A DNA stretch of 64,000 nucleotides from Anaerolineae bacterium (lineage in GTDB: Bacteria; Chloroflexota; Anaerolineae; Caldilineales; Caldilineaceae). Below the pieces are notes generated by a model. The model was not told the origin of the DNA and made no database searches. It saw nothing but the letters and a program-made list of their open reading frames with translations. This document shows positions 39,019-39,897 of the stretch, piece after piece. Position 1 is the stretch's first letter. Each line of letters opens with the position of its first letter. The stretch is from contig JAUIHI010000012.1 in the NCBI GenBank assembly GCA_030432295.1, positions 62,001 through 126,000 on the forward strand. Reading direction: 5' to 3'. The position numbers were made by a program, and so were the translations under genes.

Positions 39019-39717
39019 CTACCCAAACGCGTCCCGAAACTCTGTGACCGCTTTCGGTCCGTTGCGCTCCAGCCCGGTGTAAAACTGGGCCTGGTCCTGG
39101 ATGCGGTAGTCGAGACGCTCTACCCGGAAGGGAGCCATCCGTTCCCGATTGCGCCGCCGATCCAACACCTGCAAAAAGTATTGGACGGCATTTTCCACGC
39201 TGTGGGAATCGGACCAGTCGGATTTGTAGATGGGCGTACCCGCCTGGTTGAAAATCCAGGTCATATTGGGCATTGAGCCGTAGGCCCGATGGCACGCTCC
39301 GTCCAGGCTATCTACCAGAATCCGGCGGCTGACGCCCAACACATCGCGCAGGGCAGTCGCATGGCGTAATTTCTGCTCCATCGACGTCAGGTGAGGATAG
39401 ATTTCCCCCGGGTGGGCTTCGTTGGTGTAGAGAAAGATCGAGCCGACGCCTGCATCGGCGTAGCGCTCGGCAATGGCATTCATAGATGGCGACGCCATCC
39501 CGCAGTAGGGTCAGGTGAAGCTGCCAAACTCCACGACTGTATAGCTGTTGGCCGACCAGATCGCAGAGAGGCTCGTCTCCGTGCCGTCCAACGTCCACAA
39601 CGGAAAATCCGGCCCTTTGCTGCCCAGAGGTGGACTCTGGTCAAAGCGCATCCACGGCTCGAATTTGGCCGGGACGAATTCGTCGTAGTTGTAGCGGGTG
39701 AGCAGGTCGTCGGTCAT
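39019..39717 (-). CDS. Iodothyronine-deiodinase-like redoxin, probable selenoprotein (in-frame TGA)
   Basis: The minus-strand frame from ATG 39717 is open to 39019 except for one TGA at 39511-39513 (codon 69). Around it the protein reads YTVVEFGSFT-(TGA)-PYCGMASPSM, closely matching the deiodinase active site (animal type FGSCTUPxF), where U is selenocysteine. Further matches are LYTNEAHPGE (deiodinase IEEAHxSDG with the catalytic His), RRILVDSLDGACHRAYGSMP and GTPIYKSD. The fold is thioredoxin-like; here the motif is UxxC, suggesting a thiol/selenol redox enzyme. A small hairpin with a G-first loop follows the TGA (see next entry). The alternative is a nonsense mutation. Selenium genes are not in the window. 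Confidence 0.75.
39485..39499 (-). promoter_or_regulatory. Candidate bacterial SECIS element
   Basis: In the mRNA, 11 bases after the UGA, GAUGGC-GUC-GCCAUC forms a perfect 6-bp stem with loop GUC. The loop starts 17 bases after the UGA, and its first base is G. Known rules for bacterial SECIS (apical loop 16-37 bases after UGA, 3-14 bases, G within the first two) are met, though the loop is minimal. Confidence 0.5.
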
Positions 39718-39766
39718 TGTGGAAGACTCCTTTGCCAAACATTCGAGAACCAGCAAATGACCAGCG

Positions 39767-39897
39767 CCGGTTGAGTAGGCGGGTGCTTTTTCCCGCCGTA
39801 TCGAAACCAAGCGGGTCGACAGGAAATTGCGTGTAGACCCGTTCGCTGGTTTCGATACGCCTCGAAGACTCGGCTACTCAACCGGCGCTCACTGGTC
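39767..39897. repeat. REP-like long inverted repeat
   Basis: GCCGGTTGAGTAG on the left pairs with CTACTCAACCGGC on the right, and inside, CGTATCGAAACCA pairs with GGTTTCGATACG, with AGCGGGTC/GACCCG arms further in. The words GGTTTCGATACGCCTCG and GGCTACTCAACC resemble repeats seen widely in Actinobacteria. It separates the deiodinase-like gene from the propeller gene. Confidence 0.7.

Follow-up and report, generated by a model that had tools for sequence, protein, structure and literature searches.

A gene for a deiodinase-like protein that is interrupted by a single in-frame TGA raises two questions: Does this TGA encode selenocysteine (Sec), and what kind of enzyme would result? To our knowledge, no substrate has been identified for the bacterial relatives of the thyroid deiodinases. 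The locus lies in a 64,000-nucleotide stretch of DNA from an Anaerolineae bacterium, which we refer to as the window. It deserves attention for several reasons: ordinary gene calling would split or lose the gene, which we found in 56 genomes, the genes adjoining it offer testable partners for the enzyme, and its clade bears on the origin of animal deiodinases.

Reading Frame of the Gene

The gene occupies positions 39019..39717 of the minus strand. Read from the ATG at 39717 to a terminal TAG, with TGA translated as Sec, it encodes 232 residues, and its sole internal stop is the TGA of codon 69 (39511..39513, minus strand), the predicted Sec of a UPYC motif (U69/C72) in the context FGSFT-U-PYCGM. 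A Shine–Dalgarno-like AAAGGAG, read from the sequence, is located at 39727..39733 on the same strand, 9 nt 5′ of the ATG. An earlier note on this DNA had placed the TGA exactly at the deiodinase Sec position and had described similarity on both sides of it; our re-reading of the frame agrees, with LYTNEAHPGE and GTPIYKSD both present in the translation. The anticipated failure of standard gene calling is likewise apparent in the open reading frame listing, which yields two pieces of 99 (39511–39810) and 159 (39019–39498) amino acids.

The gene is flanked by two repeat-like features. Just 5′ of it, a 127-bp imperfect palindrome (39758–39895) belongs to a dispersed element of the genome, apparently of the MITE or REP type: 40 places scored out of 140 candidates, itself included, are 83–92% identical and distributed over many contigs. 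Past the 3′ end, the segment 38916–38992 contains 31-nt arms that are 74% complementary and 15 nt apart, a candidate repeat or terminator.

Conservation of the TGA

We scanned 84,980 species genomes with peptide patterns, five of six placed away from the Sec codon, and obtained 63 loci. The intact clade genes among them, 56 with the window gene included (42 clusters at 90% identity), are 41–94% identical, and an alignment at codon 69, as the earlier note had proposed, reveals TGA in 56/56 and Cys in 0/56; Cys occupies the Sec site only in the more distant L108 and L109. A search of relatives gave nine near-full-length homologues of 70–93% identity with exactly one TGA apiece. Because the TGA recurs in 56 separate assemblies, it is not a sequencing error, and the possibility that 39511–39513 truly reads TGT or TGC falls away. 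That the clade never swaps Sec for Cys suggests a chemistry beyond that of Cys. Its hosts are mainly Chloroflexota, joined by metagenome-assembled genomes labelled Planctomycetota, Latescibacterota, Acidobacteria, and Neomarinimicrobiota, some of which labels may be binning errors, and two homologues from Actinomycetota are 41–43% identical. Within the genus, dN/dS amounts to 0.03–0.11 5′ of the TGA and to 0.02–0.09 3′ of it, values that point to strong purifying selection on both halves of the gene.

Four further loci (L098, L099, L101, and L104) are frameshifted or 5′-truncated gene copies; L099 shares its contig with L053, to which it adds a second but broken copy, and the TGA is retained in L098 and L099. 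Within the gene's own genome, we found no paralogue beyond two weak thioredoxin-like matches. We also considered a phage origin, which looks unlikely since viral contigs gave only one distant Cys relative (L139, 35% identity).

SECIS-Like Hairpin and Selenocysteine Machinery

Downstream of the UGA, the mRNA can form a bacterial SECIS-like hairpin (39484..39500, minus strand) with a 7-bp stem, GGAUGGC/GCCAUCU, and a GUC loop. In keeping with the earlier note, GAUGGC begins 11 nt and the G-first loop 17 nt past the UGA. Published rules for bacterial SECIS elements call for a loop of 3–9 nt with G in one of the first two places, a stem of 4–16 bp, a distance of 16–37 nt from the UGA, and a minimum free energy of at most −7.5 (PMC13188914); the hairpin has a 3-nt loop, 7 bp, a distance of 17 nt, and −9.6 kcal/mol. 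On its own, the hairpin is unexceptional, with z = −0.99 in a synonymous-codon control, and a 57-nt stretch of the window sequence folds otherwise (z = −0.15). The SECIS reading is carried by comparative evidence and not by single-sequence stability: The mean hairpin z over 57 sequences is −2.2, and in a covariation alignment of 55 sequences (51 distinct), 95.2% of the cells in the 7-bp helix are paired and five of its seven pairs have changed on both sides. The covariation score of the helix is 0.190 versus 0.106, none of 500 shuffles reaches any of five measures, and sliding the partner strand by 1–3 columns lowers pairing to 30–59%. Unrelated stems occur in L105 and L106 (GCAGAG...CUCUGC with a GGUC loop) and in L107 (GGCGAG...CUCGCC with a GGU loop). 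Folding did not recover the 7-bp helix in three homologues (L094–L096), and no SECIS family of Rfam matched the gene stretch.

The earlier note had named selA, selB, selD, and tRNA-Sec as the genes to look for, and the genome (6.7 Mb in 61 contigs, estimated to be 100% complete) contains all of them, so that the absence of selB and tRNA-Sec no longer comes into question as an objection. Contig C47 carries a tRNA-Sec (66.9 bits, above cut-off; identified by ARAGORN as tRNA-Sec with anticodon tca) as well as SelD (335 bits), and contig C16 carries SelB (a 643-aa frame, above cut-off) and SelA (578 bits). The SelD frame itself crosses one TGA in CAG-U-ASK, which we take to be the usual Sec/Cys site of SelD, making it a second likely selenoprotein of the same genome. 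Among 150 relatives, 135 have a tRNA-Sec match above cut-off, including all nine with a near-full-length homologue; because tRNA-Sec is so widespread, this co-occurrence has little power. TGA ends 12 of the 35 window frames of at least 350 codons and has thus not been reassigned.

These observations bear on two further ways in which the codon might be read. Were the TGA a true stop, the downstream frame would be a separate or decaying gene, which accords with the ATG at 39498 that opens the 159-aa frame and with the ordinary use of TGA as a stop in the window; yet both halves align as one protein with TGA at the same codon in 56/56 homologues, and both are under strong purifying selection, for which reason we assign this explanation a very small probability. 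Decoding of the UGA by near-cognate suppression or as Trp is hardly credible, for nothing beyond the open frame itself speaks in its favor, whereas the complete Sec machinery, the SECIS-like covariation, a position corresponding to the Sec of DIO and other deiodinase-like proteins, and the role of TGA as a normal stop elsewhere all argue against it. Stop-codon, pseudogene, and Trp-recoding readings were accordingly rejected in view of the TGA of the homologues, the selection, the machinery, and the covariation. The selenoprotein call passed every test that was run, and comparative sequence evidence strongly supports the internal TGA as a predicted Sec codon.

Family, Fold, and Phylogeny

The kinship with deiodinases that had been suggested is corroborated by profile, fold, and tree. 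Three Pfam families score above cut-off, namely PF08534 (33.8 bits), PF00578 (28.6 bits), and PF00837 (28.1 bits, at a gathering score of 27), and the best NCBIfam match by far is NF038285 deiodinase_rel with 53.5 bits, far below its cut-off of 250. A family-profile search of the PDB ranked DIO3 and DIO2 first (1.8e-14 and 8.9e-12), the next entry following at 1.7e-7. An AlphaFold2 model (pLDDT 95.7, pTM 0.92) has its closest matches among all solved structures in mouse DIO2, with Z = 19.0 (rmsd 1.9, 157 residues), and mouse DIO3, with Z = 18.3; the next thioredoxin-fold structures range from Z = 15.6 downward. In the tree, the UPYC proteins form one clade (100/98), apart from TlpA (100/99) and TlpA/ResA proteins and nested in a group supported at 99/99 that also holds deiodinase-like proteins of the UPPF, UPIT, and Cys types; the branching inside this group is uncertain, and the mouse sequences in the tree are fragmentary. 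S66, E100, A101, and H102 are invariant in 58 sequences, and U69/C72 is invariant within the UPYC clade. We take S66, E100, and H102 to correspond to residues of the DIO3 structure that deiodination requires.

With mouse DIO2 and DIO3 (9h48, 4tr3) the window protein shares the fold, FGSxTUP, EAHP, and AYG. It differs from them in having UPYC rather than the UPPF of animal deiodinases, in an identity of only about 20%, and in lacking an insertion of roughly nine residues after EAHP; the distinction between UPYC and UPPF and the redox enzyme deduced from it in the earlier note hold. Redoxin and Prx-like UxxC selenoproteins (PF08534, PF00578) have the above-cut-off Pfam matches and UxxC in common with it, but the window protein has no peroxiredoxin PxxxT/S-x-x-C/U site, as T68 immediately precedes U69 (FGSFTUPYC), and the tree separates it from TlpA/ResA.

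Two Chloroflexota proteins of the FGSYT-TGA-PPF type (L118 and L119) share 36–39% identity with mouse DIO3 within the matched part and stand nearer to the animal deiodinases than the gene in the window does. In the deiodinase-like proteins L123 and L125, the active site contains no Sec and no Cys (ITSP and ITGP, respectively), which possibly reflects loss of the redox residue.

Gene Neighborhoods

At four loci (L053, L062, L064, and L067), a DUF3179 gene with an in-frame TGA lies directly 5′ of the deiodinase-like gene on the same strand and ends within ~60 bases of it (L067:3867–4976; L053:3980–4993; L062:3803–4945; two copies in L064). These genes encode a lipoprotein-like signal and have their TGA in VTW-U-P-[LI]-C (VTWUPLCYTG), so that the two would constitute tandem selenoprotein genes in the four loci. 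The DUF3179 gene of the genome under study has Cys and not Sec. A complete or partial glutaredoxin-thioredoxin reductase fusion lies near eight homologues, a pyridine-nucleotide disulfide oxidoreductase near eight, a gene for a VTT-domain membrane protein at ten loci, and an ECF-sigma-like gene, named by eye, at eleven; these are raw counts, and they are not independent because related loci share their context. None of these five gene types neighbors the gene in the window. Its neighbors within its own genus, assigned by eye as a dipeptidase, a BNR-type protein, and a chaperonin-like protein, are uninformative with regard to redox function.

Proposed Enzymatic Mechanism

By computation, the conserved Sec-TGA, the covarying hairpin, the full Sec machinery, the kinship, the fold, and the invariant U69/C72 are well shown; from them we infer Sec incorporation and the catalytic cycle, and from the gene neighborhood only, the reductant. 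The protein is most likely a cytosolic deiodinase-like selenoprotein that acts as a Sec69/Cys72 oxidoreductase or peroxidase and is recycled by a thioredoxin/glutaredoxin-type reductase. SelB, guided by the hairpin right after the UGA, would decode codon 69 as selenocysteine. The selenolate of this residue could then attack an oxidized substrate, that is, a peroxide, a disulfide, or a like electrophile, Cys72 of UPYC would resolve the intermediate as a selenenyl-sulfide, and the reductase would regenerate the enzyme.

The closeness of the fold to DIO2 and DIO3, the retention of FGS-x-T-U-P, E100-A101-H102-P103, and AYG, and the invariance of S66, E100, and H102 would also suit a Sec-dependent enzyme of the reductive dehalogenase type, in which a halogenated aromatic replaces iodothyronine. 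UPYC with its clade-invariant Cys72, unlike animal UPPF, suggests a dithiol-type cycle instead, and we saw no halogen-related neighbors; we thus regard a dehalogenase as improbable. Beyond the Sec69/Cys72 oxidoreductase or peroxidase that we favor, one may speculate, with considerable reserve, that the UPYC clade is a Sec-obligate family of its own, distinct in function from the UPPF proteins, and that Chloroflexota have a dedicated pathway of selenium redox chemistry in which it acts together with the DUF3179 selenoprotein and the glutaredoxin-thioredoxin reductase.

Relation to Known Selenoproteins

Deiodinase-like Sec proteins were first reported in bacteria in 2005, from the Sargasso Sea metagenome (PMC1088965), and reviews of 2022 and 2026 include in their tables of bacterial selenoproteins a deiodinase-like family with the domain PF00837 and the motif UxxC (PMC9312934, PMC13188914). 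The novelty of the find should therefore not be overstated and is modest: The gene is a well-supported addition to a known family. Compared by description, the tabulated family, with its representatives MFL2763324.1 and MBO99264.1, has the same domain, Sec position, UxxC motif, and bacterial SECIS; the present clade, compared in the same manner, differs from it in being Sec-only and mainly from Chloroflexota and in extending ~45 C-terminal residues past the deiodinase match. Our literature search returned nothing specific on selenoproteins of Chloroflexota or on a linkage to DUF3179, and as far as we found, the Sec-only UPYC clade centered on Chloroflexota and its tandem arrangement with DUF3179 in four loci are new.
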